Below are positions 24,565 through 47,890 of a stretch of 64,000 nucleotides of DNA, one piece after another. The notes under the pieces are model-generated. The model did not search any database, had not been told where the DNA came from, and saw nothing but the letters and a program-made list of their open reading frames with translations. Position 1 is the stretch's first letter. Every line of letters begins with the position of its first letter. Made by a program: the position numbers and the translations under genes. Source of the DNA: Flavobacteriaceae bacterium. Lineage in GTDB: Bacteria; Bacteroidota; Bacteroidia; Flavobacteriales; Flavobacteriaceae. The DNA lies in contig JAQWGN010000010.1 of the NCBI GenBank assembly GCA_029238215.1, forward strand, positions 62,001 to 126,000, read 5' to 3'.

Positions 24565-25246
24565 GAACCCTATAAAAGCATTATTTTTTGATTTGGATCA
24601 TACCCTTTGGGATTTCGAAAAAAACTCTGCGCTAACGTTCAAGCAATTATTTACAACGTTTGACATTAATCTATCATTAGACGATTTCCTTGCTGTTTAT
24701 ATACCAAACAATAACGCCTACTGGAAGCTCTATAGAGAAGGTAAAATTGAGAAGGAAGCCATGCGTTATGAACGTCTTAAATCTGTTTTTAACACGTTGA
24801 ACTATAAGGCTACAGACGCTTTGATTGATAATTTGGCGGATGCCTATATTCAAGGACTTCCAAAGTATAATGCCTTATTTAATGGAGCTATTGACGTGCT
24901 TGCTGCGTTAAAACTTAGATATTCACTGCATATAATTACGAATGGATTTAAAGAAGTACAACATCTTAAAATGAGAAACTCTGGGTTACTTCCTTTTTTT
25001 GAAACGATCACGGATTCATCGAGTGTAGGAACAAAAAAACCAGATCCTACAATTTTTAACCATGCACTAAAAGTAGCTCAAGTACATCCGCATCAAGCAT
25101 TAATGATAGGAGATAGCCTTGAGGCTGATATAGAAGGTGCTTTGAATGTTGGGATGCAAGCGGTACATTTTACGCCTGTAGCAGAATGTAATCCTGCACA
25201 TTATCATGAAATTACGCAACTCCAACAGTTGTTACAAATACTTTAG
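24557..25246 (+). CDS. yjjG: YjjG-family noncanonical pyrimidine nucleotidase (HAD)
   Basis: A 229-aa haloacid-dehalogenase-type phosphatase. The nucleophile motif FFDLDHT gives Asp12 and Asp14; motif II is IITNGF near residue 120; motif III/IV includes KKPDPTIF and MIGDSLEADIEGA. YjjG enzymes remove phosphate from nucleotides and help clear noncanonical pyrimidines. The gene overlaps the preceding one by 8 bp, and its stop overlaps the convergent rlmB stop by 4 bp. Confidence 0.88.
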   Translation: MNKNPIKALFFDLDHTLWDFEKNSALTFKQLFTTFDINLSLDDFLAVYIPNNNAYWKLYREGKIEKEAMRYERLKSVFNTLNYKATDALIDNLADAYIQGLPKYNALFNGAIDVLAALKLRYSLHIITNGFKEVQHLKMRNSGLLPFFETITDSSSVGTKKPDPTIFNHALKVAQVHPHQALMIGDSLEADIEGALNVGMQAVHFTPVAECNPAHYHEITQLQQLLQIL

Positions 25247-25962
25247 TGATTCTGCCTGCGTGCTTCGTAAAGCACCAATGATGCAGCAACAGAAACGTTA
25301 TATGAGTCTAAGATTTCTTTAATAGGGATTTTGAACTGTTCATCACAAAGACCTAGCACGCTTTTGCTAATCCCTTTGTGCTCATTCCCCATAACGATTG
25401 CAATTGATCGTTTTAGATCTACCTGATCAATATCGTTTGAAGCTTTTTCAGTACACCCAAGTATCGGAATTTCGTGAGATTTAAAGTGGTAGATAGCATC
25501 TTTGATGTGACTTACACGAACAATAGGGATATGAAACGCTCCTCCAGCAGAGGTTTGTATGGCTATTTCATTTAGGGGAGCTGCTCCTGTTTGTCCAATG
25601 ATAATCCCGTTAGCCCCTAAACCGACGGCACTACGAATGATTGCACCAAAGTTTCTGACATCGGTAATACCATCCAATATTAGAAAAAGCTGTTGTGTAT
25701 TTTCTTCAATAATATCTTCTAAGCGTGCAAACTGAATTGCTCCTAAAAGGGCAACAAAACCTTGATGATTTTCCTTGGTATGTTTGTACAGCTTTTGAGC
25801 GGGAACAAACGAATAGGATACTCCAGATCGCATCACTTCTTCCTTGAGCTTTTGCGCACTTGGATTTTTAAGATCATTTTCGATCAGGACTTTTTGTACT
25901 CCTGATGGGTTTTGAATGGCTTCACGAACTGCGTTTATACCAAAGATAGCTGTTGTAGGCAT
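25243..25962 (-). CDS. rlmB: 23S rRNA 2'-O-ribose methyltransferase RlmB (SpoU family)
   Basis: A 239-aa SpoU/TrmH-type SAM-dependent methyltransferase, probably modifying G2251 in 23S rRNA. It has the N-terminal substrate-binding domain (FGINAVREAI) and a C-terminal trefoil-knot domain with motifs DGITDVRNFGAIIRSA, IVMGNEHKGIS and SLNVS-like SYNVSVAASLVLYE. It lies downstream of the second protease gene on the same strand with a 33-bp gap. RlmB fits best, but another TrmH-family rRNA methylase is possible. Confidence 0.88.
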   Translation of the reverse strand: MPTTAIFGINAVREAIQNPSGVQKVLIENDLKNPSAQKLKEEVMRSGVSYSFVPAQKLYKHTKENHQGFVALLGAIQFARLEDIIEENTQQLFLILDGITDVRNFGAIIRSAVGLGANGIIIGQTGAAPLNEIAIQTSAGGAFHIPIVRVSHIKDAIYHFKSHEIPILGCTEKASNDIDQVDLKRSIAIVMGNEHKGISKSVLGLCDEQFKIPIKEILDSYNVSVAASLVLYEARRQNH

Positions 25963-25995: not shown

Positions 25996-27885
25996 TTAGT
26001 TATTCATAAGCATGAACTTAGCAATATAGTTTTCAGCCCCCTTGATTTTCATAAAATATAAGCCGTTTTCTAAGTGACTTACGGCAATCCTGTTCTTTGC
26101 TTCACCAATCCATACTGTTTGTCCCATTATATTGATTATAGACACTTCAGTAGCTTTTTTAAGTCCATAGATGTTTATCAGACCATCGGTTACAGGGTTT
26201 GGATATATATAGACTTCTTGAGAATTCTGTTGTTTTAAGCTAAGCGGAAATGATAATTCATTACCAGAAATAATGAGCGAATAATCTTGATATTTTGGTC
26301 GTTCCAATGGCGATTGGCCTGGGTTTACTAAATCTCCTTTGTGGCTAACACTAATTGTATATATTCCCGGCTCGGGTAAGTCAATGTCGATTTTTTCATA
26401 GTTATCTACTACATTATCCCCTTTTTCATTTAGGACGTTATCTTCTGTTAAAACAAGTCTCCAAGGTAAAAATGTTTCATCTCCTTTGGTAATCTTAACA
26501 TCTAAATCATTTACCAATACTGGGTCTGGGTTATTTGCCACTAATTCCCTAAGGGGACCTGCAGGATCTGTCCAGGATAATGAAACAGATAAATTATCAC
26601 TACTTCCAACAGTAACATCCATTGTGAAGGTGCCAGCTTGAACCAATCTTTTTTCTGCTATTAACGCATCTCCTGTTGTTGTGTCTGAAATGAGCTGCGC
26701 AGCACTAGCCGCATCCAATAATCCCCAACCAAAATATGGATCAGGGCCCTCATTTGTGCTGTCGTCAGCAGCAGTGTGACACGCCAAAGCTTTTATTGTA
26801 GCTGCTTTGGGTATGTTTCCAGTGGTATTTGTGTAGTGTTCGTGCACCAAGACTAAAGAACCACAAACGTTAGGTGATGCCATTGAAGTACCAGAGTAGT
26901 TGTCATATTCGTTTTCCATCACACTAGAAAAAACATTTGTTCCATCACCAGCGATATCCGGTTTCACTCTTAAATCATCTGTAGGGCCTTGACTACTGCT
27001 ACTATTTATTGGAAAATCTGTTAGTTGTTGCGTCAATGGATTGAAAGCCGGATTTGCATTTGCAATCACTAAATTATTTTTAGCCGTTTTTGTATAGTTT
27101 AGCTTGTCAATATTTAAAAGCATGCCTCCTTCATAAGAAGTAATTCCGTCATTTCCAGCTGAAGAAACCATAAGAAGGTTTTTATTTTCAAAAGAAATTC
27201 GATCCCATTGTTGCGCGTAACCATTATAAGAGCCTATATCTTCAGCAAAAAGCACTTGTTCGTTATCATCATCATAAATATAAAATCCATACGAGTGATT
27301 TGAGAAATATATAGGGTTTGTAGCATCATTTGCTGCATATATTATTTCACTGTCAACATCGTCTGCGTCATACGATTTTACAGCAGCACCAAATGCCATT
27401 CCCAGAGCTGCACTATTTGAACCAATAGCCGCGATAGTTCCTGTAACATGCGTTGCATGATCTGAGATATCCATTAAGTCTTCCGTTTCTACTTTTGTTC
27501 CATTCTCTGTTTGGAATTCATCATGTGTTGTTTCGGCTACACCAATATCCCATACCCCTACAGTCGCGTTTTTACCACTTAGGTTAAGATTTAATTCACC
27601 ACCAGGCTGAATTTTTATAGTTTTTGTTCCCTTAGCAGCATTGAGGTTGTCCGTGGCTAAGTAAATAGGCAAATTTGCTTTTACATCAAAAAGCATGTAA
27701 TTTTTTTGTTTTTTTTTGAAGTCAAGCTTTGTTTGTGGATTCTTAGATAGGAACTGTTCAATCCTATTGCTTCTTTTACTTTTTTCGTATTTTATTTTTT
27801 CAAGTAATTGAAGATTTCCCTCAGATAAATTTTGTCCAGTTACAATCCCAGATAGAAGCACTATTAAATAAATAAGTTTTCTCAT
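25996..27885 (-). CDS. Secreted S8 subtilase with T9SS sorting domain (module 1)
   Basis: A 629-aa secreted serine protease. It has an N-terminal signal peptide (cleavage near TGQ at 16-18), a region of about 90 residues before the catalytic domain, and an intact subtilisin triad: Asp113 (GVWDIG), His143 (DHATHVTGT) and Ser334 (GTSMASP), with oxyanion Asn245 (SAGNDG). A beta-sandwich follows (VNDLDVKITKG, YTISVSHKG). The end is a type A T9SS sorting domain (YPNPVTDGLINIYG, ENGLYFMKIKG). It closes module 1 after SusC, SusD and a lipoprotein. A strong terminator sits 3 nt before its start codon. It is paralogous to the protease of module 2. Confidence 0.92.
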   Translation of the reverse strand: MRKLIYLIVLLSGIVTGQNLSEGNLQLLEKIKYEKSKRSNRIEQFLSKNPQTKLDFKKKQKNYMLFDVKANLPIYLATDNLNAAKGTKTIKIQPGGELNLNLSGKNATVGVWDIGVAETTHDEFQTENGTKVETEDLMDISDHATHVTGTIAAIGSNSAALGMAFGAAVKSYDADDVDSEIIYAANDATNPIYFSNHSYGFYIYDDDNEQVLFAEDIGSYNGYAQQWDRISFENKNLLMVSSAGNDGITSYEGGMLLNIDKLNYTKTAKNNLVIANANPAFNPLTQQLTDFPINSSSSQGPTDDLRVKPDIAGDGTNVFSSVMENEYDNYSGTSMASPNVCGSLVLVHEHYTNTTGNIPKAATIKALACHTAADDSTNEGPDPYFGWGLLDAASAAQLISDTTTGDALIAEKRLVQAGTFTMDVTVGSSDNLSVSLSWTDPAGPLRELVANNPDPVLVNDLDVKITKGDETFLPWRLVLTEDNVLNEKGDNVVDNYEKIDIDLPEPGIYTISVSHKGDLVNPGQSPLERPKYQDYSLIISGNELSFPLSLKQQNSQEVYIYPNPVTDGLINIYGLKKATEVSIINIMGQTVWIGEAKNRIAVSHLENGLYFMKIKGAENYIAKFMLMNN

Positions 27886-27888
27886 AGC

Positions 27889-27930
27889 AAAAAAATTAAG
27901 CCACTCAACAAATAAACATTGAGTGGCTTA
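27889..27930 (-). terminator. Intrinsic terminator directly before the module 1 protease
   Basis: A perfect 12-bp stem pairs 27897-27908 (TAAGCCACTCAA) with 27919-27930 (TTGAGTGGCTTA) across a 10-nt loop. On the minus strand it is followed by seven Us (27895-27889). It lies after the lipoprotein stop, and the U-tract ends 3 nt before the protease ATG. Confidence 0.88.
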
Positions 27931-27957
27931 TATATTAAATTAATTTAGGAGATATTG

Positions 27958-28719
27958 TTATTCAATATCAAAAAACCCAACTGCATTTGGTCCTGTAACA
28001 GAAGTGCTTTCCACAGCTTCTGTACCATTAACTGATACTGTAAAACCACCATCTGTTATTCCATCGCCATATAAATCATAGACAATAATAGCATATGAAC
28101 CTGTATCCAAGCAAAGTTTAGTTTCTACAGTGGTTTCTAGTAAGCCAACAAAAGTGTCACTTTGATAGACAAGTACCCCCATCGGGTCTGTAGTTATATC
28201 CAACACTTCGAAATAAGTTTCCTCAGGATATTCGTCAGTTGTAATATCTACCGAAACATCGTTAAGCGTACATTTTTTCACAAAAGAAATCTCTGTAGAC
28301 TTACGTTCTTCATTAAGAACAACACCTGCGTCTGTATCTAATTGGTCACTGCTAATGTCAAGAACTAGTTTTTTCTCATCTCCAAAGTCTAGTAGCGCAT
28401 GGCTAAAACTTAATGTTGAAAATCCACTTGTTTCTCCTGCAGCTATTGTTACAGATGGCGTCATGCTATACAAACTGCTGTCTGGTCCAGATGTTACCTC
28501 TAGATTAACTACAATTGGACTAGCTGATGGTTTTATTGTTGATACTACAACATCATATGTTGTGGTTTCTTCAACTTCAACCATTTTTGAATCTGTGTCA
28601 AATGAAACAGCAATTGGTGAATCTACCCCTAATAGTGCATCATCATCGCTACAAGAAGCAATTAGTATTGTAAACACTAATAAATAGGCTGGCTTGAATT
28701 TTAAATAGTTTAAAAACAT
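27958..28719 (-). CDS. Surface lipoprotein with Calx-beta-like and DxYGDGI domains
   Basis: A 253-aa lipoprotein, start set at 28719 (MFLNYLKF). The lipobox Cys23 (LIASC) is followed by SDDD, which resembles the acidic lipoprotein export signal described for Capnocytophaga, so it is probably surface-exposed. Residues about 30-130 look like a Calx-beta/immunoglobulin-like beta domain. Residues about 150-253 contain TTDEYPEETYFEVLD and GSYAIIVYDLYGDGI, a pattern I recall from extracellular Bacteroidota peptidases. It lies between susD and the protease of module 1 and may act like SusE/SusF, binding substrate. Module 2 has no counterpart. Confidence 0.65.
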   Translation of the reverse strand: MFLNYLKFKPAYLLVFTILIASCSDDDALLGVDSPIAVSFDTDSKMVEVEETTTYDVVVSTIKPSASPIVVNLEVTSGPDSSLYSMTPSVTIAAGETSGFSTLSFSHALLDFGDEKKLVLDISSDQLDTDAGVVLNEERKSTEISFVKKCTLNDVSVDITTDEYPEETYFEVLDITTDPMGVLVYQSDTFVGLLETTVETKLCLDTGSYAIIVYDLYGDGITDGGFTVSVNGTEAVESTSVTGPNAVGFFDIE

Positions 28720-28729
28720 AATGTATAAT

Positions 28730-30214
28730 TTATAGTGGGTTTTGATCAACCTCGTTAATTTCCGTATTGTTGTCTAACTCCTTTTCTGGAATTTGAAAAC
28801 GCATCTCGTTATCATCATAATCAAAATCAAATTTCCCATAAGCGGGGTGGTTTGAACCATCGTAATCTCTAACAAGGTTTACATTATTGCGTTTCATGTC
28901 TAACCATGCAAAACCTTCACCCCAAAGTTCAATTCTTCGTTGTAAATGAATTTCGGAAAGTAGAGAAGCCCCTGTCTTGTCAGATTGCGTATACCCTGAA
29001 TCTCTTGTACTTACTAAGTCATAAAGGATTCCTGCTGCCTTAGCATCGTTACCACTTCTTGCTTCAGCTTCAGCTTCAATAAGATACATTTCTGATGCAC
29101 GCATGTAAACGTAGTCTCCAATAAAACTAGAACCACTAGCATCATAAAACTTATAACTTGCGTAAGGAACTGTTGTATCATCTGCATCACCAAACGCATC
29201 TTTTCTAGCGTCTGTATCATTAATCGCATTGTAGAGTCTTGCGTCAATTGTTTTGTAAACTCCAATAACACCTGTGTACCCAGCGTTCAAGGTACCCATA
29301 TGAGAAAAGAAAGATGCATAAATTGTTGAAGATTCTGCATTGATATCTGCACCCCACATCCACTCAGAATTTGAAATACTATCAAAGCCACCATTTACCC
29401 ACTCATCTGCAGACATTAGTGCGAATCCATTTTTAGCAGTATTTGCCATTTGTGCACACAATGCATCATTTGTTCCTGTTTCCAATAAAACGCGAGCATA
29501 AATACCTGCGACTACTCTTCTGTTTAATTTTTCTTTTGATGGTCTCGAGTACCCTTCAATATTATCATAGGCATAGCTAAGATCAGAAAGTATTAAATCA
29601 TAGACTTTTTGAACAGTCCCACGGCTTTTATCATTTATATCTTGCTCAGGCGCATACAATGGAACACCAGGTGCCTGCGGATTCGCTTTGTATGTATGTT
29701 GATAGAAACGAATCAAGTTGAAATACGAATACGCTCGAATTGCCATTGCTCTTGAGCGAAGGTGTACTAAAGATTCATCCGAAGCATCTGGTGCAATTTG
29801 CCCAATGATAGAATTAACATTCATAATTATTGTGTAATAAAAATTCCAGATAATTCTAGTTGTAGAGAAATCTTGTGTTCGTCCTTGGTACGAGTAGTAG
29901 TTCGAAAACCAATGATCTATTACTTGGACTGCGTCATTTGAAAGTAAATCAACTCCTAAGTCAATAGATTTTTGGCCAAAATCGTCAGCACGCTCTCCAG
30001 TGTCAGAAAAGTTCGTAGAGTATTCTCTCATAAAAGCATATTGCCCGTCTTCAACACCTAAGTTGATCGTCAATGCAGCTTCTGGCGAAGATTCTGCCAG
30101 TTCAATTAATTGTTGCTTTGTCACAAGGCTCTTAGCCTCGTGATTAAGACCATCTTCGCTACAAGAAACTATCAAGAAGCTTAATGATATAAAATAAAGG
30201 ATTCTATTTTTCAT
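28730..30214 (-). CDS. SusD/RagB family outer membrane lipoprotein (module 1)
   Basis: A 494-aa substrate-capture lipoprotein that forms the lid of a SusC-type transporter. The lipobox is at Cys18 (FLIVSC) followed by SEDG, an acidic export-signal-like start. Typical SusD helices are visible: RSRAMAIRAYSYFNLIRFY near 150-168, VPLYAPEQ, and the C-terminal HLQRRIELWGEGFAWLDMKR near 425-444. It lies 9 bp after the SusC stop and 10 bp before the lipoprotein start. Substrate cannot be read from the sequence; the linked proteases suggest peptides. Confidence 0.92.
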   Translation of the reverse strand: MKNRILYFISLSFLIVSCSEDGLNHEAKSLVTKQQLIELAESSPEAALTINLGVEDGQYAFMREYSTNFSDTGERADDFGQKSIDLGVDLLSNDAVQVIDHWFSNYYSYQGRTQDFSTTRIIWNFYYTIIMNVNSIIGQIAPDASDESLVHLRSRAMAIRAYSYFNLIRFYQHTYKANPQAPGVPLYAPEQDINDKSRGTVQKVYDLILSDLSYAYDNIEGYSRPSKEKLNRRVVAGIYARVLLETGTNDALCAQMANTAKNGFALMSADEWVNGGFDSISNSEWMWGADINAESSTIYASFFSHMGTLNAGYTGVIGVYKTIDARLYNAINDTDARKDAFGDADDTTVPYASYKFYDASGSSFIGDYVYMRASEMYLIEAEAEARSGNDAKAAGILYDLVSTRDSGYTQSDKTGASLLSEIHLQRRIELWGEGFAWLDMKRNNVNLVRDYDGSNHPAYGKFDFDYDDNEMRFQIPEKELDNNTEINEVDQNPL

Positions 30215-30223
30215 AATTTTTTT

Positions 30224-33200
30224 TTAAAAAGTTAGTTTTAAACCAAAGCTAACGTTGCGTAAAAGTGAATAATCACTTTCCACAGCTAAAGCTGTTAGCC
30301 CAGCGGTTCTAGGATCATATCCCTGACGCGCAGACCATAAATACACATTGTCTATGTTAGTATATAATACTGCATTATCAATAAATAAATCACCAGGTAT
30401 GATAGAACTTAGATCATACGATAATGAGATGTCTTGAATGCTCAAGAAAGAGTTGTCAATAAAATACATAGACGATGTTGCATAATAGTTGTTGTCATCA
30501 TTTTTAACAACAATTGGTAATTGTGCAGTGGTATTCTCTGGTGTCCAAGTTTGTGTAAATAAATCGTTGTGGAAGTTTTCTCCAGGTTCAGATCTAAGCA
30601 TCGAGAAGTATGCACTGTCTCTTCCATATCCACCAACTTGGTATGCAAAGTTGATACCTAAGTTTAAGTTTTTGTACGACACAGATGCGCCAAACCCTCC
30701 GTAAAAGTCAGGTAATGGTGACTTGTCTAGGTGGTATTCACTAGCATCTGAAAAGCTTTCAGTTACGTTGCGAACTCCAGTAGGTTCACCATTAGTATCT
30801 AAGACATCTTTGTAGAAAGTTGCTGCTCCATTTACAGGATTAACACCTGCAAACTCACGCATGTAGTATTCATACAATGAACGACCTTCTTCATACCTAA
30901 ATGATCCAGCATCAATAAAGTCTCTTGGAAGCTTCGTTATTTCATTCTCGAAAGATGCTACATTAAAGTTTAAGTCAACTGTAAGATCATCACTGTTGTA
31001 AACGCTACCGTCAAGGCTAAGTTCCCAACCACGATTTTCCATATCACCTACATTTTCTGGAAAACTAGGTAGTCCAGAAGAAGGCGGTTGTGGTGTGTTG
31101 AATAATAAGTCTTCAACTTTTCTGGTAAAGAATTCAAAATCAACGTTTAACTTAGAATCAAATAGACTCGCAGCAAAACCAAAGTTTGTGTTTGTAGAGG
31201 TTTCCCAAGTTAAGTTTGGATTACCTTGATAAGCCAATGATAGTCCAAAATCTCCGTTGTTATTGGTTACAGAATACTGATCTTGATATGCAATGAAGTT
31301 TCTTCCACCATCAGGATATAAAATACGATCGTTACCAACTTGTCCAAAACTAGCCTTAATCTTAAGCTCATTTATAATGTCTACATCAAAAAAGTCTTCT
31401 TTTGAAATTCTCCATGCACCACCGGCGCCGTAGAATGTTCCCCAACGAACTGAAGGATCAAATACTGAAGAAGCATCACGTCTAAAGTTTGCACTTAAGA
31501 AGTATTTCTCATCAAAATTATAATAAAGTCTAGCAAGCCATCCCTGAACAGTGTAGTTATATTCACTATTATTCATTGATTGCATTGTAATCCCTTGGTT
31601 CAATACGTTTTCTTGTGGTAACAAGAATTTAGTTTTTTGAGCTGAAAGGTTTACGTTATGCCAGTCATTAGATTCATAACCTCCTAAGAAATCAATATTA
31701 TGGTTTCCAAAGCTTTGCTTGTACTCTAAAAACACTTGGTTAGAGAAGGTAGATGAGCTAGACGCTGAAGGAGTTGAACGCCCTTCTACATTTGCAGCAT
31801 CACCACCAACAGAAGTGTCATAGTCTACTCCAGAGGTGTTACGATTAAGGATGTTTGCAACATACCTTACTCCTATATTATCTGTAATTTCAAATCTTGT
31901 GTTAACAGTAGCATTAATGTTATCTGTAGTAAATACTTTTCTATCTAGTATGGAAGATGCATATGGGTTAGCAAATCCAGCATAAGGTCTTGCTAATGGA
32001 GTTCCATTTGATTTGTCTCCAAAATCATAAACTTGCGTTCCACTGGAATCAAGGATAGGAGTACCATCTGTTTGATAACCAAAAATTGGATAAATAGGCG
32101 CTATAGATCGTGTCCAACTAAATGCACCAGCATAACCTCCTTGGTCAGGAGTATTTTGCACTGTACGTGAGTAGTTAATGCTCGATTTTACTTCAATTTT
32201 ATCTTTAAACTTAAAGTCGTTCTTAAAAGAAGCAGTTGTTCTTTCAAAGCTTGAGTTTACAGCGTACGAGTCATTCTTCTCATGACCTAAGGAGAAATAT
32301 GTTTTTGAGGTATCAGAACCACCTGAAACATTCATAAATATTTTTGTAGAAATATTTTCATTAAACATATAGTCATCCCACTTTTCGTTCCAAAGAAGGT
32401 TACTTGAGTCTGTCGTTAATAACCCTGTAGCAGGATCAATAAGTGCGTTGTTAGCGGTACCATATGCATTGTACCCTAAAGAGTATCCAAGTCCATCCGT
32501 ATCAGTAATTAGATTTTGAGCAGCTGCAAGTCTTGCATTAGCATCGCTGTATCCTAAATCATGCATAAGGGTGTTTCTAGAAACCATGAAAAAGCCTTCA
32601 TAGTATCTTCCCGGATTCATGATACGATCGTAATCTTTAGTTGCACGCGTTGAAACTGATGCACTATAATCGAGCGTAGCTTTGATACCACCTTCTTTAC
32701 TAGATTTTGTTGTAATGATAACAACTCCGTTAGATCCTCTACTACCATATATGGATACAGCTGATGCATCTTTAAGGAAAGTGATAGAGCCAATATCTTG
32801 CGGATTGATAGAGTTAATTGCCCCATTAAAAGGCACGCCATCTACAACGTAAAGCGGTGAACTAGATGCGTATAGTGAGCCAATCCCCCGAATTCTTACG
32901 GTTGGACTTGATCCTGGTTGACCACTATTACTAAATACTTGTACACCAGCAACTTTTCCAACAGCAGATTGTAATACGTTTGGATTTCTTGCCTTGTCAA
33001 GTACTTCAGCATCAATTTTCCCAACAGAACCGGTTAGTTCTAATTTACGTTGTGATCCATATCCAGTAACAAATACTTCATCAAGAACCGTAGAGCTTTC
33101 AAGCACTATGTTTAATACAGTAGCGTTAACAGAAACCTCTGCAGCAGTATATCCCACATAACTTACCGTTAAAGTAGTTCCATTGTCAGCGAGAATTGCG

Positions 33201-33379
33201 AAGTTACCATCAAAGTCAGTGCTTGTGGCCGTTGAGGTTCCTTTAAGCACAACAGTAGCACCAGGGATTGGTAAACCATCCTGGTCCGTTACAGATCCTG
33301 TAACTGTTTGTTGAGCTATGGCAACCTGAAACACTGCAATAAGACACAGTATTAAAATTTGAATAAATTTAGTTTTCAT
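30224..33379 (-). CDS. SusC/RagA family TonB-linked outer membrane transporter (module 1)
   Basis: A 1051-aa outer-membrane importer. It has a signal peptide, an N-terminal carboxypeptidase-regulatory-like domain (VTGSVTDQDGLPIPGATVVL near 25-44), a TonB plug with the SusC signatures VRIRGIGSL, YVVDGVPFNG and SIYGSRGSNGVVIITTK near 165-225, and a long beta barrel to the terminal VSFGLKLTF. With SusD it should import large ligands using TonB energy. It is the first gene of module 1. Upstream lie a weak -7 element and an AT-rich hairpin that may end module 2. Confidence 0.95.
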   Translation of the reverse strand: MKTKFIQILILCLIAVFQVAIAQQTVTGSVTDQDGLPIPGATVVLKGTSTATSTDFDGNFAILADNGTTLTVSYVGYTAAEVSVNATVLNIVLESSTVLDEVFVTGYGSQRKLELTGSVGKIDAEVLDKARNPNVLQSAVGKVAGVQVFSNSGQPGSSPTVRIRGIGSLYASSSPLYVVDGVPFNGAINSINPQDIGSITFLKDASAVSIYGSRGSNGVVIITTKSSKEGGIKATLDYSASVSTRATKDYDRIMNPGRYYEGFFMVSRNTLMHDLGYSDANARLAAAQNLITDTDGLGYSLGYNAYGTANNALIDPATGLLTTDSSNLLWNEKWDDYMFNENISTKIFMNVSGGSDTSKTYFSLGHEKNDSYAVNSSFERTTASFKNDFKFKDKIEVKSSINYSRTVQNTPDQGGYAGAFSWTRSIAPIYPIFGYQTDGTPILDSSGTQVYDFGDKSNGTPLARPYAGFANPYASSILDRKVFTTDNINATVNTRFEITDNIGVRYVANILNRNTSGVDYDTSVGGDAANVEGRSTPSASSSSTFSNQVFLEYKQSFGNHNIDFLGGYESNDWHNVNLSAQKTKFLLPQENVLNQGITMQSMNNSEYNYTVQGWLARLYYNFDEKYFLSANFRRDASSVFDPSVRWGTFYGAGGAWRISKEDFFDVDIINELKIKASFGQVGNDRILYPDGGRNFIAYQDQYSVTNNNGDFGLSLAYQGNPNLTWETSTNTNFGFAASLFDSKLNVDFEFFTRKVEDLLFNTPQPPSSGLPSFPENVGDMENRGWELSLDGSVYNSDDLTVDLNFNVASFENEITKLPRDFIDAGSFRYEEGRSLYEYYMREFAGVNPVNGAATFYKDVLDTNGEPTGVRNVTESFSDASEYHLDKSPLPDFYGGFGASVSYKNLNLGINFAYQVGGYGRDSAYFSMLRSEPGENFHNDLFTQTWTPENTTAQLPIVVKNDDNNYYATSSMYFIDNSFLSIQDISLSYDLSSIIPGDLFIDNAVLYTNIDNVYLWSARQGYDPRTAGLTALAVESDYSLLRNVSFGLKLTF

Positions 33380-33401
33380 AATTGTTTGATTGTTAGCAAA
33401 T

Positions 33402-33409
33402 CAAAGATG
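33402..33409 (-). promoter_or_regulatory. Possible -7 element for module 1 susC
   Basis: The minus strand reads CATCTTTG, one mismatch from TAnnTTTG, 22 nt before the susC ATG. The upstream DNA is very AT-rich and offers no clear -33 TTG. The rest of the 219-bp gap shows no other feature besides the AT-only hairpin at its far end. Confidence 0.35.
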
Positions 33410-33580
33410 TTAAAAAAATGTTAATTCTAAAAACTTATTTTAAAATTCATTATTTTTTTTGTATTTCAAAAAATCAACAGGTTAAATCTTATGTTTTAAG
33501 ACCTCTTTAATTACTTTTAAACATACTTTTTGATGAAATAAAACAAAATTAATTACTCAAAAAAACAAAATAAACGTCAT

Positions 33581-33605
33581 AAAAATAATTAATCTACATT
33601 AATTA
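33581..33605 (-). terminator. Weak AT-only terminator candidate after module 2
   Basis: Positions 33586-33593 (TAATTAAT) pair with 33598-33605 (ATTAATTA) across a 4-nt loop, followed on the minus strand by five Us. The stem overlaps the protease stop codon. With no GC pairs, termination may be inefficient. Confidence 0.4.
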
Positions 33606-35587
33606 AGTGAAAATTTTCCATATTTCGCAATCCCTTTTCCGCGTGCTTTAACAATATATACGCCTGGGGATAATGTATTGGTGTTGTAGATGAAACTTTG
33701 CATTGCTCGTTCAAGTGTTTTACTCGCAATCAAACGTCCTGATAAATCATATACATCAAATCCATTAAGTGCTACGGAAGGGTCGCTATGCATTATGGTT
33801 AGTACCCTTTTTTCCGAATTATGGCGGAGTAGTAGCTGTTGTTTTGTTAACTCTAGCGAAGTATTTGTGTTTAATGTAGGCGCCTCACCATCAACCGATA
33901 CGATTAAGGAATAAGACTGATTTTCAGCCAACGTCCCTTTATGATTTATGGTAATCGTATACGCACCTGCGCTTGGGTTTTCTATTTCAATTTTCTCAAT
34001 ATTATCAACGATATTATCTCCTTTTGTTGCAGAAAGGCTGTAGTTAGTTGCGTCTAGTTTCCATGGGTAATAAACCGTTTCTCCTTGTGTTATGCGTACA
34101 TCTAAATCATGGACTAGGGTTGTTTCAGTTGTTAAATCATCCAAGTAGGGGTCGTTCCAACTTAACGTCACGGTTAACTTTTCAACAGATTCGTCTAATA
34201 ATAGATTTATTTCCTTTGATCCAAGATTTTCGAGTTGTTGTTCGTGTATGGCCGTACTGGAGCCCGCATCATCCACAATTAATGCAGCGGCCTTTTCTAA
34301 GTTTAGCATGCCGAATCCTGTTTTTGCATCAGGACCAATAATATCGTCAACAGATTTCCAAAAACGAATGTCGTCTGCCGTATGGCAGGCTATTCCTTTT
34401 AGTGTAGAAGCTAGCATAAAGTTAGTATAATACGATTTATATAATTCTTGTAAAAGCGCCAAGCCTCCAGTTGTTGCAGGTGCTGCAAAGGAGGTTCCGC
34501 TAACCGTTGAATAGTTGTCTTTAACATCGGGTTCTTCACTATTCCATGATGCCGCGGGCATGCCTTCGCCAACCGCTACGAGTTCTGGTTTTATTCTACC
34601 ATCGCTTGTAGGTCCAGTAGAGCTAAACCCTGAAGGGATGGGTTCAAAGGGCGAAGAATATGCCCTTGATACCGACCCTATTGTTAAAATATTTTTAGCT
34701 GAAGACCCGTCGGTTAAATAATAATACCCTTCATATTCTTGATCTGGATAGGCGAGGCCACCTTCATTGCCTGCCGCTACTACCCTTAAATAGTAGGGAT
34801 GTACATTGGCGATATTATCCAATAGCTGATCTAATACATTGTATACCCCAATTTCATCAACAGTAAATTGATATTCGCCTTCTTCTTCGCCTTCACCTTC
34901 CTTATAAATGGGAAAACCGTAAGAGTGATTTGAAAGAATAAAGTTTTCATTGGTACTCAATGCATCGGTTACTTCATTTTCTGCATCATCCCAATTCCTG
35001 TAAAGGAGTTTGTCTACGTGTGGAGCAATCCCCGTAATATTATAATTTGTTCCATGAAAGACTCCACTTGCAATAATAGTAGAGGTTACTGAAGTTGGAT
35101 GAGAATCATCTACTACTTGGCTTTCGGTTTCTAAAACTTCGATTTTATTTGCCTCAGTTCCAATGGCACCAAACTCCACGTGATCTTGTAAAATGGCACC
35201 ACCATCCCAAACCCCAATGGTAACCCCTTCGCCAAACAATCGTAGACCAAGCGAGCCAGCCGTTTTTAGTTCATTCCCTTTCATGGGAGTATACACATCT
35301 ACCCCGTGATTGGTGGAATAGTACAATGGTTTGCCACTAGCAGACACTCCGTTAGGGCGAATGATTTCCCCGGCTTTATTGCGTTTTAATCGAGGATCAT
35401 TAATGGCAATTAGGCTGTCAATAATTCGGTTATTACGCTCTTTAAAGTTGTTGAGGTTTTCATGCAAGGCAACTTTTTTCTCTGCTTCAGTATGTTGATT
35501 AGATTCTACGGCAGTAGCAGACGGCTTGTTTGTGGTGCTACAACTAAGAAACAGTAGTAGTAGAAAAAGTATTTTTGGGTTTTTCAT
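33599..35587 (-). CDS. S8 subtilase lipoprotein with T9SS-like C-terminal domain (module 2)
   Basis: A 662-aa serine protease with an intact triad: Asp128 (GVWDGG), His163 (DDSHPTSV), Ser366 (GTSFAAP) and oxyanion Asn274 (AAGNEGG). The His motif HPTSVTST departs from the usual HGTHVAG. Unlike its module 1 paralogue, it has a lipobox at Cys16 (LFLSC) followed by STTNKPS, without acidic residues. A beta-sandwich (VHDLDVRITQG, YTITINHKG) follows, then a T9SS type A-like end (VYDLSGRLIASK, LSPGVYIVKARG). The combination of lipidation and a T9SS domain is unusual. The gene starts 13 nt after a strong terminator. Confidence 0.9.
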   Translation of the reverse strand: MKNPKILFLLLLFLSCSTTNKPSATAVESNQHTEAEKKVALHENLNNFKERNNRIIDSLIAINDPRLKRNKAGEIIRPNGVSASGKPLYYSTNHGVDVYTPMKGNELKTAGSLGLRLFGEGVTIGVWDGGAILQDHVEFGAIGTEANKIEVLETESQVVDDSHPTSVTSTIIASGVFHGTNYNITGIAPHVDKLLYRNWDDAENEVTDALSTNENFILSNHSYGFPIYKEGEGEEEGEYQFTVDEIGVYNVLDQLLDNIANVHPYYLRVVAAGNEGGLAYPDQEYEGYYYLTDGSSAKNILTIGSVSRAYSSPFEPIPSGFSSTGPTSDGRIKPELVAVGEGMPAASWNSEEPDVKDNYSTVSGTSFAAPATTGGLALLQELYKSYYTNFMLASTLKGIACHTADDIRFWKSVDDIIGPDAKTGFGMLNLEKAAALIVDDAGSSTAIHEQQLENLGSKEINLLLDESVEKLTVTLSWNDPYLDDLTTETTLVHDLDVRITQGETVYYPWKLDATNYSLSATKGDNIVDNIEKIEIENPSAGAYTITINHKGTLAENQSYSLIVSVDGEAPTLNTNTSLELTKQQLLLRHNSEKRVLTIMHSDPSVALNGFDVYDLSGRLIASKTLERAMQSFIYNTNTLSPGVYIVKARGKGIAKYGKFSLN

Positions 35588-35600
35588 TAGTGTAAGTTAT

Positions 35601-35630
35601 AAAAAACCCCGCATATAGCGGGGGTTTTTA
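35601..35630 (-). terminator. Intrinsic terminator directly before the module 2 protease
   Basis: Positions 35602-35612 (AAAAACCCCGC) pair with 35618-35629 (GCGGGGGTTTTT), with one bulged G and a 5-nt loop. On the minus strand, six Us follow. The run of T on the plus side could also work in the other direction, but no plus-strand gene ends here. The protease ATG lies 13 nt beyond the U-tract. Confidence 0.9.
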
Positions 35631-35651
35631 AAGCTTTTTAAAATCTATGTG

Positions 35652-37232
35652 CTAATTAAAAGCTGGGATATTTGAATCGTCAGTTCTTGCATTTGAAGAG
35701 GTCAAATCATAATGAGGAGTAATCCCTTGGGGATCAGCACTAACTCCTCCTAAAGTATATAATTCTTGCTCAAGTACTTCAAGCTCTGTAGCTGGAATCG
35801 GTAAATGACGGAAAGTGCCAATTTGAAGTTGATTCGTCCTGCGTCTATCAAAAAAGCCGCTACCAACAGCTGTGTTAAACAACTCTACATAACGCTCATA
35901 AAATATTGCATCTAAAATAACTTCCTTAGTTTCACCACCCGATAATGGTGTGAGATTACCTCTTGTGACGCGGGAACCTTCATTTATATCAAAGGCTGCA
36001 CCAGAAATATTATCAAGTTCATTTAGTCTTGCTTTTGCTTCAGCAAGAAGTAAACGATTGTCCTCCACAGTAAAAGTTTTTATCTGTTTAGCATCTGCAC
36101 CATCAGAAAAATTAATATCATTTGCATACCTTGTATTTATATAATGAGAAAAATGGAATCTACCTCTTTCGGAACGAAAAAGAATATCAGATTTAAATTC
36201 AAAATCTTTCCCAACTCCAAACCTATTGTCAGCTGTGGTTATTTGTGGGTTTGTTAGGGTAGAACCAGAACTTGCAGGAAAGAAGCTTGGTTGGTTTGGA
36301 TCAACAAGGTTAATTACTCTCATATCAAGTCGAGCACCAAATCTACCAAATCCATTTGGTGAATTATTTAAAACATATGATCTTGACCACCAACTAATAC
36401 CATCATCACCGTATGGACCAAAATCTTGATTAATTCCATTTTGTGTTAAAGTTTTAACACTTCCCCAGTCAATAGCATTTGTTTCAGATAAATTTCTTGC
36501 TCCTTGAACAATAAAACGAGCTTTATATGAATTACAAAGCTGAATTAAATCTGAACTACTAATTGCCACTCCATTAACTACTGATTCTGGAATTATTATT
36601 GTATTATTTTCTGCAACTTCAATGGCCTTGTCTAGTTCTAACACAGCTTGCTCAACCAATTCTTGATAATTAACATAGGAAAAGTCTTTAGACAAATCAT
36701 CACCAGGATTTATTATGAATCCTTTTTCAAAAACTAAACCTAAATATCCATAAGAAAGACCTTTTAGAAAGTAAGCCGAAGCTTCGACAATTGGAGTTTT
36801 ATCTGTGCCCCCATCAATCCATTCAATTCCGTTTGCAATGGCTTCTAATACATCATTAGCTGAAGAGATTGCAGAATAATTCCCTCCCCAAGGCTGAGTT
36901 AAAACAGTTAAGTCACTCCAAGAAGACGTATTCTGAATAGGATTCCTAGGCTCATTTGACAACACTCTCATTCCCCAATTACCCCAAGAACATGTAGCGT
37001 GATCTCCAGCTACTGCCAAGGCGGGAATTAAATCTCTGTTGTTTCCTTGCCACCAAATTACATAGCCTCCGCTAATGATTCCAATTAAATCTGAGCCATT
37101 AGCAAGAACTTGAGTTCTGTCAGGATTGTTTAAGTTTTCTACTGCATCAATATCATTTTTACAGCCTGTAAACACTAAAAATAATGTAAGTGTAGGTAAA
37201 ATAAGTTGTTTAATAGTTTTCATTTTTTTCAT
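35652..37232 (-). CDS. SusD/RagB family outer membrane lipoprotein (module 2)
   Basis: A 526-aa SusD-like lipoprotein. The lipobox is at Cys24 (FTGC), followed by KNDIDA; the start could also be Met4. It shows the SusD-type helical core (SAYFLKGLSYGYLGLVFEKG near 153-172, ILDAIFYERYVELFNTAVGSGFFDRR-type segment near 444-469) and the end RHLPIPATELEV. It lies 2 bp after the SusC stop, so the pair is co-translated or closely coupled. It is only distantly related to the module 1 SusD. Substrate unknown; peptides are inferred from the downstream protease. Confidence 0.88.
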   Translation of the reverse strand: MKKMKTIKQLILPTLTLFLVFTGCKNDIDAVENLNNPDRTQVLANGSDLIGIISGGYVIWWQGNNRDLIPALAVAGDHATCSWGNWGMRVLSNEPRNPIQNTSSWSDLTVLTQPWGGNYSAISSANDVLEAIANGIEWIDGGTDKTPIVEASAYFLKGLSYGYLGLVFEKGFIINPGDDLSKDFSYVNYQELVEQAVLELDKAIEVAENNTIIIPESVVNGVAISSSDLIQLCNSYKARFIVQGARNLSETNAIDWGSVKTLTQNGINQDFGPYGDDGISWWSRSYVLNNSPNGFGRFGARLDMRVINLVDPNQPSFFPASSGSTLTNPQITTADNRFGVGKDFEFKSDILFRSERGRFHFSHYINTRYANDINFSDGADAKQIKTFTVEDNRLLLAEAKARLNELDNISGAAFDINEGSRVTRGNLTPLSGGETKEVILDAIFYERYVELFNTAVGSGFFDRRRTNQLQIGTFRHLPIPATELEVLEQELYTLGGVSADPQGITPHYDLTSSNARTDDSNIPAFN

Positions 37233-37234
37233 TT

Positions 37235-40200
37235 TTAAAAGTTTAGGTTGACTGAAAAACTAAATGTCTTAGTTGACGGATAAGGAAAATTATCTACCTT
37301 GAAGACATTTGTGTCCCCACCAGGTGTGTTAGCGTCACTACCTATTCCATTTGATGCGCGTGAAGTTAAATCTGAACGATTTGATTCAGATTGATGTGAG
37401 ATTTCTGGATCAAAACCTGAATAATCTGTAATTGTTAAAAGGTTTCTTCCAATAACCCCGATTTTAATAAGATCAATGTGCTTTCCTATGATTCCTAAAT
37501 CCTTACTTGAAAGTGTATAATAAAGAGACATTTCTCTTAATTTAACAAAAGAGCCATCTTCAACAAATGCTGAACTTGATAAATTTACATTATATAAACT
37601 TTGATAAAAATTATATGGTAAATTGTTTGTTATGTCTGTATGTCTACCATCTCTATATAACCATTGTTTTGTTTTATTATATATATCTCCACCTTTTTTC
37701 CAGTCAACAAGTGCATAAAAGCTAAAGTTTTTATAAGAAAGATTTGTATTAAATGCCATTCTGAAGTCTGGATTTATGTCTCCTATAATAAAAGATTCAT
37801 TTCCTGAACTATCAACTCGTTTAACAGCACTTTGCCCGGTGGCTTTATCAACTACATATCCAGCACTGTTTATAACATAATCTGATGGGTCTAAACCAGA
37901 AGGTAACTTACTTAAACTTTTTATAAGTTCATTCCCATACATGCTACCAAAATTAACTCCTTGTTCAATCCTAAAGATTGTAGTTTCTTGCGTACCGGGT
38001 CCGGTTAAATATGCAGGCACATCAAGTTTTGAGATTAATTGCTCTGAAGTGTCCCAAATGACTCCTAAATCCCATTTCCAGTCTTTTTTGGTAATAATAT
38101 TTCCATTAAGGCTCGCCTCCCATGTTTCACTTTCAATTTCTCCTGCATTTCGCCATTGTGCTGAATATCCTGTAGATGCTGGTAAGGGGACTCTTAAAAT
38201 TTGATCTTCAGTTGTTGATTTCACATAGTTTAACTCCATAGAAATACGGTCTAAAAAACTCACATTCAATCCTAATTCAATTTCAGTAGTCTCTGCAGGT
38301 CTTAAATCATTATTTCCTAAAGTAGCTTTTGAAGGAGATCCATCGGTTAACGTAAATGTTTCAAACCTCATTTCATACGTAGGTCTTATTCCCGCTGTTC
38401 CAATTGAACCTCTTACTTTTAATTCTTGAATTCCAGGGATTTCTAAGTCTTCTGAAATTCGATAAGCTGCACTTGCTCTATAATAGTCAGCGTCCCTGTT
38501 ATTTGGTCCAAATAATGAAGAACTTTCAATTCTATAGACTCCACTAAATATGTATTTACTGTCATAATCAAAATCTGCAATTGCAAAATAACTGTCAGCT
38601 AATATACTTTCCGATTTAGATGAAACAGATGGTTCATTTGAAATGTTATCTAAAGATCTGATTCCAGAAACTGCCAAATTATAACCTTCTGCATTATTGT
38701 ACTCGTTGTTATAGCGTTCATGTAAAAAGCTAAGACGTAAATTCAAGTTTAATTTTGAATCTTCTTCAAAAAAGTTTCTAAAAAGCATATTAAACCGAGC
38801 GTTTTGAGAACGCCCTCTAAATGTTGATCGCTGAATAAATCCTGCATTTTGAGCATTTCCATCAGGATCATCAGATAAATAACCTTTTGGGATATAATTT
38901 TCAAAAGAATTATCTTCATAATCAAATGAATAAGACCCATTAAGGCGTAACCACGGAAATGTATTATGTGATAAATCTACACTTCCAAGAATTCTATTTC
39001 TATCATCTGTCCTTGAGTTGTTTGCAAGTGTATACAAAGGATTTCTTATGTTAGGATCAAATGTGTTACTATCCCAATTATAAGCCGACCCATCTTCCTC
39101 ATTAGTGGCATTCCAATCATATATAGGCTCTGTTATGAGTGTGGTAAATAGAATCCCAACAGTTGAGCCCGAATTGATATTAGAGTCTCTATCTGATCGG
39201 CTGTAAAAGAAAGATGATTTTAGATTAAAATCCGTAAAAAAAGTGTTATCTAAATTCATTCTAAAATTGTCTCTAGAGTAAGAATCTACTAAATTGAAAA
39301 TTCCCTCGTCTTCAAGGTGTTGATATGAAAATAAAAACTTTGATTCTGTAGAGCCACCTTGAAGCGAAGCATGATGTGTACTAAACAACCCACTTTTAAA
39401 AATGACATCTTGATAATCATAAAGTTCTGAAATAGGGTAAGGATTATCACTTACGCCGTCTACATCAACCTCTCTAGACCCACTGCTTAAATCAAAATTG
39501 TCACCTGCAGTATTTAGTTTAAATCGATGTGTCGTAGCTAAATCATACTTGGAAGAAATTTGTTTAAACCCATATTCCGAGCGGTAACTGAAACGTAGGT
39601 TTCCTTTATCATTATCGGATAAAATCACTTTGCCTCTTTTGGTAAAGATTTCAATAACACCATTTGAAGCTCGTGAGCCATATATTGATGCACCTGCAGC
39701 GCCTTTTACAACTTCAATTCGTTCTACGTCCTCTGTATTAATATCTGCTAACCCACCTTCAAGTATAATTCCATCCAGAATGACTAAAGGTTGTTGACCA
39801 GTTGACAAAGAGTTTGCTGCTCTAAGTTGAATCGAAACATCACTTCCAGGTTGACCTCCACTTGGTGAAATCTTAACACCAGAAATTTTCCCTTGTAGTG
39901 CAGAAGTTACTGTTGATGCAGGTACATTTTCTAATAACTCATCTTTTACTTGTCCAACAGAAAAACTCAACTCTTTTATTGATTTTCCAGTAGCACTTCC
40001 TATGACTACCACCTCATCCAATTTATTATCTAGATTCAGTTGGACATCATGCGTGGCTGCATTTACCACAACACTTTGCGTGGCATAACCTACATAGCTG
40101 AATTCTAGGGTTTCGCCTTGGCTTGCGTTAATTTGGTACTTCCCATCAAAGTCTGATGAAACACCGCGCGTGGTACCCTGTACAAGTACAGTAGCTCCAG

Positions 40201-40309
40201 GCAGTGGTTGGTTGTTTTCGTCGGTTACGGTACCCGATACGGTTTGTGACCATGCCGTTGTACTCATGAGTGCTAGAAGAAGCACACCTATATGTCGTAT
40301 ATAGTTCAT
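37235..40309 (-). CDS. SusC/RagA family TonB-linked outer membrane transporter (module 2)
   Basis: A 1024-aa transporter; the start chosen is ATG 40309 (MNYIRHIG), which gives a clean signal peptide ending near AWSQ. It has the carboxypeptidase-regulatory-like domain (VSGTVTDENNQPLPGATVLV), a plug domain with VSIQLRAANSL, LVILDGIILEGG and SIYGSRASNGVIEIFTK, and a barrel ending FSVNLNF. The plug has SIQLRAANS where module 1 has TVRIRGIGS, so the two pumps belong to different SusC subgroups rather than being recent copies. It is the first gene of module 2. Confidence 0.93.
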   Translation of the reverse strand: MNYIRHIGVLLLALMSTTAWSQTVSGTVTDENNQPLPGATVLVQGTTRGVSSDFDGKYQINASQGETLEFSYVGYATQSVVVNAATHDVQLNLDNKLDEVVVIGSATGKSIKELSFSVGQVKDELLENVPASTVTSALQGKISGVKISPSGGQPGSDVSIQLRAANSLSTGQQPLVILDGIILEGGLADINTEDVERIEVVKGAAGASIYGSRASNGVIEIFTKRGKVILSDNDKGNLRFSYRSEYGFKQISSKYDLATTHRFKLNTAGDNFDLSSGSREVDVDGVSDNPYPISELYDYQDVIFKSGLFSTHHASLQGGSTESKFLFSYQHLEDEGIFNLVDSYSRDNFRMNLDNTFFTDFNLKSSFFYSRSDRDSNINSGSTVGILFTTLITEPIYDWNATNEEDGSAYNWDSNTFDPNIRNPLYTLANNSRTDDRNRILGSVDLSHNTFPWLRLNGSYSFDYEDNSFENYIPKGYLSDDPDGNAQNAGFIQRSTFRGRSQNARFNMLFRNFFEEDSKLNLNLRLSFLHERYNNEYNNAEGYNLAVSGIRSLDNISNEPSVSSKSESILADSYFAIADFDYDSKYIFSGVYRIESSSLFGPNNRDADYYRASAAYRISEDLEIPGIQELKVRGSIGTAGIRPTYEMRFETFTLTDGSPSKATLGNNDLRPAETTEIELGLNVSFLDRISMELNYVKSTTEDQILRVPLPASTGYSAQWRNAGEIESETWEASLNGNIITKKDWKWDLGVIWDTSEQLISKLDVPAYLTGPGTQETTIFRIEQGVNFGSMYGNELIKSLSKLPSGLDPSDYVINSAGYVVDKATGQSAVKRVDSSGNESFIIGDINPDFRMAFNTNLSYKNFSFYALVDWKKGGDIYNKTKQWLYRDGRHTDITNNLPYNFYQSLYNVNLSSSAFVEDGSFVKLREMSLYYTLSSKDLGIIGKHIDLIKIGVIGRNLLTITDYSGFDPEISHQSESNRSDLTSRASNGIGSDANTPGGDTNVFKVDNFPYPSTKTFSFSVNLNF

Positions 40310-40504: not shown

Positions 40505-41572
40505 TTACAGGCCTAAATTTGCGAGTAGCTTTTTATGTGTTGCCTTTCGGTCTAGTTTAGCTGTTGCGGTATACACAAATGCGTCCAAGCAAATCACATC
40601 TTTTGGAATATGGTGCTTATCTGCTCCCAATACCGATTGTGCCATTGCTAGCAACGCATCTGTTTGGGTTTTTGGTGCTTGGGCTACCAATACCATTTGC
40701 TCCCCAAGAGTTTCATCAGGAAGACTTGTAAAAAAGAAGGGGATTGAGAGTACAGCGCCTAAGGTTTCTTCAAGCTGCTCAGGAATTATTTTCTTTCCTC
40801 CCGAATTAATAACCCAATCCTTGCGCCCCAATAAATAAAACGAATGTTCGTCTACCAGCTTTACCACATCCTGTGTTGTTATCGTTGAAGGAGATGCGTA
40901 AGGAACGTTTAAAACCAAGCAGTTATCTGAGCCTGTTGCAATATCAATTCCTGGCATCGCCCGAAAGGCAACAGCAGGGTAAGTAATAGGACGTGTGGCC
41001 ACATGCGTAAGGGTTTCAGTCATGCCATAGGTTTCTATGCAGTTGGAATGCGTGGCAGCAAGTGCCTTTTGGAGTTTGGTGTTTATAGGTGCCCCTCCAA
41101 TAAGGATTGTTTTAAAGCGTTTTAATTGCGCCAAATTTTGCTGGGCTTGTAGCGGAATCAATGCAACGAAATCGTATGATTTTCCGTTTAATTCGAATGT
41201 GGTCTTAGGGGTTATAACATCTAAATGCAATCCAAGAGTCATGGCTCGAACCAGCATCATTTTACCAGCAATATAGCGTATGGGCAAACATAGTAAGGCC
41301 GTGTTTCCAGCACGGAGTTCAAAAAAAGTTCCTGTTCGTTGTGCCGATTCATTCATAGAAGCCTTCGGAACATCCAATTGTTTTGCAGTGCCTGTAGAAC
41401 CCGAGGTTTGGAGGGATACGTTAGTATCATCAGATAACCATTCCAGAATGAATATGCCTAATGCATGGGTTTCCGCATCGTCATCATTTACCCAAACTTG
41501 CGCTGCTGCGCCAAGGGTTTTGGCATCATGAGATGTTCCATTGAGTCGAAATTCAGGATGGAGACGTTGCAT
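40505..41572 (-). CDS. menE: o-Succinylbenzoate-CoA ligase (MenE)
   Basis: An AMP-forming acyl-CoA ligase of 355 aa that activates o-succinylbenzoate in menaquinone synthesis. The start is set at ATG 41572 (MQRLHPEF), 2 bp after the menC stop; an earlier start at 41593 would overlap menC. It has the ATP-binding loop TSGSTGTAK, the adenylate-forming motif ETYGMTETLTHVA, the hinge GRKDWVINSGGKKI and a C-terminal lysine region TAKLDRKATHK. It is shorter than many MenE proteins (about 450-500 aa), as in other Bacteroidota. Last gene of the men operon. Confidence 0.9.
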   Translation of the reverse strand: MQRLHPEFRLNGTSHDAKTLGAAAQVWVNDDDAETHALGIFILEWLSDDTNVSLQTSGSTGTAKQLDVPKASMNESAQRTGTFFELRAGNTALLCLPIRYIAGKMMLVRAMTLGLHLDVITPKTTFELNGKSYDFVALIPLQAQQNLAQLKRFKTILIGGAPINTKLQKALAATHSNCIETYGMTETLTHVATRPITYPAVAFRAMPGIDIATGSDNCLVLNVPYASPSTITTQDVVKLVDEHSFYLLGRKDWVINSGGKKIIPEQLEETLGAVLSIPFFFTSLPDETLGEQMVLVAQAPKTQTDALLAMAQSVLGADKHHIPKDVICLDAFVYTATAKLDRKATHKKLLANLGL

Positions 41573-41574
41573 GG

Positions 41575-43520: not shown

Positions 43521-44336
43521 TTATGGAAACTTTGGATATTGCTTGAAGTTAGGAGCTCGTTTTTCTAAAAATGCATTTTTACCTTCTTGGGCTTCATCCA
43601 TAAGGTAATACATCAATGTAGCATCGCCTGCAAGCTGCATCAACCCATGCTGCCCGTCTAGTTCGGCATTCATACAACGCTTTATCATGCGCAAGGCAAG
43701 TGGACTGCGTTGTTGCATAATTTGGCACCATTCTACTACGGTGTCTTCTAAGTTTTCTAACCGGACTACCTTATTAACCATTCCCATATCTAAGGCTTCT
43801 TGAGCGGAGTATTGCTGGCATAAGAACCAAATCTCTCGTGCTTTTTTCTGTCCTACATGCCTTGCTAAATACGATGATCCAAATCCGCCATCAAAGCTTC
43901 CCACTTTGGGTCCTGTTTGTCCAAAAATGGCATTCTCACTCGCAATGGTTAGGTCGCAAACCACGTGAAGTACGTGTCCGCCCCCAATGGCATAGCCATT
44001 GACCATAGCAATTACCGGCTTAGGGATTTCACGAATTTTTTTGTGTAAATCCAAGACGTTGAGTCGTGGTACACCATCTTCTCCAATATAACCGCCTACC
44101 CCTTTAACATTTTGATCACCACCGCTACAAAAAGCCTTCTCACCTGCACCAGTAAAAACGATAACATCAATATCATCACGTTCACGACAAACATCCATGG
44201 CCTCCAGCATTTGGTTATTGGTTTCGGGTCTAAAAGCATTGTAAACTGCCTCACGATTAATCGTTATTTTGGCAATGCCTTCGTAAAACTCAAAGCGTAT
44301 GTCGCTGTATTCTTTTATTGTTTCCCAGTTTCTCAT
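43521..44336 (-). CDS. menB: 1,4-Dihydroxy-2-naphthoyl-CoA synthase (MenB)
   Basis: A crotonase-fold enzyme of 271 aa that cyclises succinylbenzoyl-CoA into DHNA-CoA. Family signatures include [15 protein letters not shown] near the N-terminus, [15 protein letters not shown] near 73-87, and [16 protein letters not shown] and [20 protein letters not shown] at the active site. The start overlaps the menD stop by 4 bp (ATGA). Confidence 0.96.
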
Positions 44337-47874: not shown

Positions 47875-47890
47875 CACTCAAAACAAGAAT

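Follow-up and report, generated by a model that had tools for sequence, protein, structure and literature searches.

Introduction

SusCD loci are commonly taken as sugar loci. A SusCD-type importer is combined with T9SS-secreted proteases in RagAB of Porphyromonas gingivalis, where the gingipain genes lie outside the rag operon. Peptidase-bearing SusCD loci, SusCD loci free of CAZymes and SusCDs that import peptides are all known kinds (PMC6499787, PMC7768429, PMC11817032, PMC9723704), and a capacity for holding peptides has been discussed for the SusCD BT2263-2264 (PMC11817032). In Flavobacterium psychrophilum, oligopeptide import that follows the action of a collagenase was proposed for the SusCD THC0290_2100/2101, which has homologues across Flavobacteriaceae (PMC9723704). 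In work on F. johnsoniae cells grown in Casitone-yeast extract medium, Fjoh_0403-0405 (SusC, SusD and SusE), a complex without an assigned function, was reported to be among the top two outer-membrane components by abundance (PMC12611786); the neighbouring Fjoh_0402 is homologous to TamA (PMC12045153). The open-licence PMC literature yielded no description of the SusC-SusD-lipoprotein-subtilase unit reported below, nor any of its hairpin or the slot between rpsL and rlmB.

Organization of the Locus

The window, that is, the whole stretch of DNA analysed, covers 64 kb of a marine flavobacterial genome (1.67 Mb, 88% complete). Positions 25996-40309 are filled by seven ORFs, all on the minus strand and transcribed in the order SusC2, SusD2, S8b, SusC1, SusD1, lipoprotein and S8a, so that module 1 is SusC-SusD-lipoprotein-S8 and module 2 is SusC-SusD-S8. 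The features of the locus and its borders are as follows:

25243-25962, minus strand: slot border, SpoU/RlmB-type rRNA 2'-O-methyltransferase
25996-27885, minus strand: S8a, subtilase resembling KP-43, signal peptide and T9SS type A tail
27897-27930, minus strand: terminator-like hairpin in the lipoprotein/S8a gap (14-bp stem and T-run)
27958-28719, minus strand: surface lipoprotein in the SusE position, Calx-beta-like domain and second beta-sandwich
28730-30214, minus strand: SusD1, lipobox VSCSEDG (PF14322 and PF07980 over cut-off)
30224-33379, minus strand: SusC1, SusC/RagA TonB-dependent transporter (TIGR04056, 693.0 bits)
33380-33598, minus strand: intergenic 219 bp upstream of SusC1 with a TAnnTTTG box (consensus match only)
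33599-35587, minus strand: S8b subtilase, lipobox FLSC and weak T9SS type A tail
35607-35623, minus strand: terminator-like hairpin in the SusD2/S8b gap
35652-37232, minus strand: SusD2, divergent SusD-like lipoprotein, lipobox FTGC (PF14322, 23.8 bits)
37235-40309, minus strand: SusC2, SusC/RagA TonB-dependent transporter (TIGR04056, 558.9 bits)
40505-47231, minus strand: menaquinone genes menE, C, A, B, D and F, in the slot-to-rpsL gap in this genus
47458-50828, plus strand: slot border, rpsL-rpsG-fusA and the next ORF (str operon)

The two successive minus-strand modules of the preliminary description were recovered, with all seven ORFs in place, as was the extra lipoprotein of module 1; SusC2 starts at about 40309 (mechanical ORF start 40351), where that description had ended the locus. 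Both SusC proteins score above the TIGR04056 cut-off of 368.25 bits. SusD1 has the two profile matches over cut-off, the lipobox and the susC neighbour of a SusD/RagB protein, and SusD2, which falls below the PF14322 cut-off of 27 bits, has a lipobox and lies 2 bp after SusC2. The proteases matched PF00082 (S8a, 101.8 bits; S8b, 88.5 bits), and alignment bore out the intact Asp/His/Ser triads claimed for them (D113/H143/S334 in S8a, D128/H163/S366 in S8b), each with the oxyanion Asn. The T9SS-type C-terminal domains claimed for both were likewise above cut-off, in S8a with TIGR04183 (45.4 bits) and in S8b with Pfam (30 bits) and NCBIfam (25.4 bits against a cut-off of 23), and SprA of the T9SS is encoded in the same genome, so both have the sequence features of T9SS cargo. 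For S8b this tail was only part of the picture, since a conserved lipobox had been overlooked: S8b proteins of the genus carry it, and most also have a T9SS tail over cut-off. The joint presence of a lipoprotein signal and a T9SS-type C-terminal domain in S8b (33599-35587; L089, L092-L102) brings together signals that are seldom combined, and the acidic surface-export motif after the lipobox Cys was absent in the S8b proteins of the genus.

A recent tandem duplication, also doubted in the preliminary description, was ruled out by the global identities between the modules (SusC 30%, SusD 23%, S8 36%). The locus holds two of the six full-length SusC proteins of the 1.67 Mb genome. The claimed lack of carbohydrate enzymes and of a regulator held, as the protein scans from 23 to 50 kb turned up neither, and the locus does not qualify as a PUL.

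Module 1 as a Conserved Unit

S8b was used as query against 149 Flavobacteriaceae genomes, and inspection of the 20-kb regions then revealed the order SusC-SusD-lipoprotein-S8 in 11 loci. When species genomes were scanned with an alignment of S8 proteins, 80 named loci were obtained. Short S8 proteins (up to 700 aa) were compared with long relatives of the same subfamily, some species possibly being counted in both sets. The synteny envisaged in the preliminary description was strongly borne out for module 1, as SusC-SusD adjoined short S8 in 32/38 loci and long S8 in 1/87 (Fisher p 1e-22, not corrected for relatedness). In Confluentibacter, Mesonia, Gaetbulibacter and Psychroflexus the unit lies in the rpsL-rlmB slot, and in Winogradskyella, Psychroserpens, Mangrovimonas and Wocania in the interval between the RNase HII gene (rnhB) and Porin_10; its presence as a whole at two genomic addresses argues for a joint function. 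At the Winogradskyella-type address (L163-L178, L208), the RNase HII gene and the gene of a 787-820 aa lipoprotein stand on one side, with Porin_10 opposite. With rlmB distances removed, S8 distances followed those of SusC and SusD (partial r 0.65 and 0.61, n = 21 loci), although S8 changed faster within the genus (57% identity, against 79% for SusC1). The surface lipoprotein was kept together with the module across homologous loci. By these comparisons, SusC1-SusD1-lipoprotein-S8a is a conserved four-gene unit.

The best PDB match of S8a was 1wmd, and its closest PDB relatives, KP-43 and SubHal, are secreted degradative proteases. The lipoprotein had no match in the PDB by sequence, nor was a sequence match to BT_2262 found for it; its predicted structure (mean pLDDT 89) combines a Calx-beta-like domain with a second sandwich and matches the Bacteroides auxiliary binding proteins BACOVA_03559 and BT3507. 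A D-x-YGDG motif in its second domain (27958-28719) is kept in most homologues. The nearest solved structures to SusD1 were 3snx and 3lew, both by sequence and by fold, and in the fold comparison BT_1439 and other SusDs came first, with RagB at rank 10; the top-ranking folds belong to uncharacterised SusDs whose annotation is carbohydrate binding.

Hairpins ahead of the Protease Genes

A terminator-like hairpin was found just 5' of the S8 gene in 25/36 modules, against a mean of 0.7 and a maximum of 2 in dinucleotide shuffles, and at the SusC-SusD junction in 4/41 cases, these junctions being shorter stretches than the pre-S8 gap. In the window, the stems lie at 27930-27897 and 35623-35607, with the protease start codons some 10-20 nt behind them, which leaves no space for a promoter. 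Region-wide totals of sigma-70-type promoters and terminators were not above chance, and against this background only the pre-S8 hairpins across relatives stand out. The protease is thus probably produced by read-through, and less of it than of the transporter. Ahead of SusC1, the TAnnTTTG box is a possible Bacteroidota promoter.

Origin of Module 2

Counterparts of SusC2 and SusD2 in four further genera (L071-L074) share 63-68% and 61-68% identity with them, respectively, whereas within their own genus identity does not exceed 39% and 31%. The rlmB of those four genera is only about 43% identical to that of the window. No S8 was found beside the SusC2D2-type pairs in L071-L074. In L073 a SusC2D2-like pair is followed by a SusC1D1-like pair (44%) and then rlmB, a tandem order outside the genus with neither protease nor lipoprotein. 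S8b, in turn, directly precedes a SusC in most sampled species of the genus, often right after menE, and is a resident of the genus. The SusC2-SusD2 pair was acquired horizontally without a protease and now stands before this resident S8b. An ancestral SusC-SusD-S8 unit was rejected for module 2, given donor-type pairs without S8 and an S8b that precedes SusC in most congeners. Of the two SusC-SusD-S8 modules originally described, therefore, the first stands as a conserved unit and the second is a composite.

The rpsL-rlmB Slot across Flavobacteriaceae

An rlmB-anchored survey covered 65 Flavobacteriaceae genera, represented by nearly complete genomes taken by list order, with the slot interval ending at rpsL or at an Omp85-like gene adjoining rpsL. 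SusC and SusD were present in the interval in 62/65 genera and in 52/53 of the intervals seen to end, compared with 1/87 of the long-S8 neighbourhoods used as a control. Among 14 informative named genomes, 11 had a slot SusCD, and Flavobacterium lacus, F. fontis and Winogradskyella litoriviva lacked it; the slot of W. litoriviva holds only a gene for a T9SS-tailed protein of ~545-560 aa and a tamA-like gene. The preliminary description had thus given the genes of the locus correctly, missing that they occupy a family-wide slot and that hairpins precede the proteases.

One to three SusCD pairs were found per slot, the usual gene order being an Omp85/TamA-like gene, SusC, SusD and lipoprotein. 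The first of these genes had no match in Pfam, NCBIfam or the PDB, and its designation as TamA-like follows the report on Fjoh_0402 (PMC12045153) and an Omp85-like SIRGF motif. In the genus of the window, menF-D-B-A-C-E separates rpsL from the slot and stands at the place of the Omp85/TamA-like gene of most other genera. The 25 of 28 Pfam families listed for 116 slot accessories include ASST, FG-GAP/ASPIC, T9SS tails, lipid-binding and Ig-like lipoproteins, S8, M4 and BT_2262-like proteins (two accessories), and no CAZyme is among the families listed. In other genera the slot occupants mostly lack a linked protease, so the slot overall need not serve peptides. The label '547 aa S8', given by profile to proteins of further slots, was discarded, the matches having come through the T9SS tail of ASST family proteins; proteins of ~545-560 aa with T9SS tails recur in the slot (L107, L108, L136, L148, L245, L246) and belong to ASST where checked. 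Proteins of ~1100 aa stand beside SusCD in some slots (L107, L139, L145, L153, L160) and are probably the FG-GAP/ASPIC members counted in the accessory scan.

Within the genus, the slot SusC is 79% identical to SusC1 in two species and at most 36% in the others, whereas rlmB is 74-79% identical in all species, which indicates that the slot occupant has been exchanged. The comparison thus supports a slot fixed between rpsL and rlmB, with a SusCD occupant that changes between species. More tentatively, and with slightly less than even confidence, it may be a single ancestral site of outer-membrane import next to the str operon, retained in almost every genus with exchanged SusCDs, which houses a dominant general nutrient (probably oligopeptide) importer, the SusCDE of F. 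johnsoniae included, and has gained a read-through subtilase in some lineages. A fixed slot with exchanged importers would offer a common address for strain comparison.

Substrate of the Locus and Rival Explanations

In this genus the slot is equipped with subtilases, which probably digest protein outside the cell so that the SusCDs import the peptides, as suggested by the linked T9SS-tailed proteases, the lack of CAZymes and the RagAB precedent. Protein digestion with fragment import, as first proposed, remains the best reading in view of the module 1 synteny, the lack of CAZymes and SprA; it is weakened by a module 2 pair that came without a protease and by SusCDs no closer to RagAB than to others. 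In this scheme, S8a, and probably S8b, would cut proteins at or beyond the cell surface, the surface lipoprotein and the SusD lids would catch oligopeptides, and the two TonB-driven SusC barrels would import different oligopeptide classes, while partial termination at the hairpins would hold protease output under that of the transporter. A change of SusCD allele in the slot would then alter the peptides taken up, or the phages or bacteriocins able to dock. The SusC-SusD-lipoprotein-subtilase operon, shared across genera, would offer a direct handle on protein uptake by marine flavobacteria.

None of SusC1, SusC2 and SusD1 was closer to RagA or RagB than to other SusCDs. Among solved SusCs, SusC1 scores highest against 5t3r (305.7 bits; RagA, 288.7 bits) and SusC2 against 8aa4 (236.2 bits; RagA, 178.8 bits), which we take to be the levan and dextran SusCs, respectively, the names coming partly from PDB titles. 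Such scores would suit SusCD pairs that import glycans or glycopeptides freed as S8 strips algal glycoprotein, with the CAZymes elsewhere in the genome; some true PULs do hold peptidases, e.g., M60 and S15 (PMC7768429), peptidases beside a mannan-type PUL have suggested a glycoprotein substrate (PMC6298971), and many SusCD loci without CAZymes may use remote ones (PMC6499787). This glycan role, the main rival to peptide import, is nevertheless considered unlikely, as there is no CAZyme at the locus or in the families listed for the 116 slot accessories, and the genera that carry the module 1 unit share no linked enzyme other than the subtilase. Neither the SusD1 fold nor the SusC sequences single out RagAB, so the substrate is not given by either.

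A quite improbable role for S8a and S8b is that of maturation proteases, which would trim SusCD, the lipoprotein or another surface protein of their own cell in assembly or turnover rather than in feeding. The lipobox of S8b, the tight co-location of the protease with one SusCD unit and a hairpin that would hold the protease below the transporter level agree with it; the linked protease is, however, absent from most slot occupants, and KP-43 and SubHal are generally known to be degradative. The turnover of the SusCDs, as distinct from their feeding role, may have a different cause, namely phages or bacteriocins for which these abundant transporters serve as receptors, with choice of nutrient only secondary for the variation. 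The jump of SusC1 identity from 79% to at most 36% within a genus of even rlmB identity, the binding of a SusCD (ButCD) by the protein BfUbb (PDB 8ypt) and the four exchanged alleles of the P. gingivalis rag locus (PMC11817032) all fit this somewhat unlikely explanation, but the same pattern is explained by nutrient choice. Peptide import thus remains the preferred reading of the locus.

Comparison with Known Systems

RagAB resembles the locus in joining a SusCD-type importer to T9SS-secreted proteases, and differs from module 1 in that here the protease lies within the operon, behind a hairpin; in sequence, glycan SusCDs are as near to the SusCDs of the locus as RagAB is, or nearer. BT2261-2264 of B. 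thetaiotaomicron, a SusCD with accessory lipoprotein partners, shares with module 1 the extra lipoproteins, and to our knowledge has no linked protease. The rag locus is like the slot, being a single locus with strongly divergent exchanged alleles, four of which are known (PMC11817032). In trsusCD loci, too, a single strand carries two SusCD pairs that differ from each other (PMC6499787), whereas here the pairs are split by S8b rather than adjacent and no CAZyme is present; directly adjacent pairs occur in L072 and L073. THC0290_2100/2101 is associated with the collagenase through co-expression (PMC9723704), module 1 with its protease through gene linkage. The gene order of Fjoh_0402-0405 (tamA-susC-susD-susE) is that of most slots, and several Flavobacterium species have it between rpsL and rlmB. 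From this order and the locus tags, rather than from F. johnsoniae sequence, we infer that Fjoh_0402-0405 is an occupant of the rpsL-rlmB slot, which, unlike the present locus, has no S8 reported. The SusCDE complex that dominates in F. johnsoniae would then be connected through the slot with a family-wide locus, which is open to testing by knockout.
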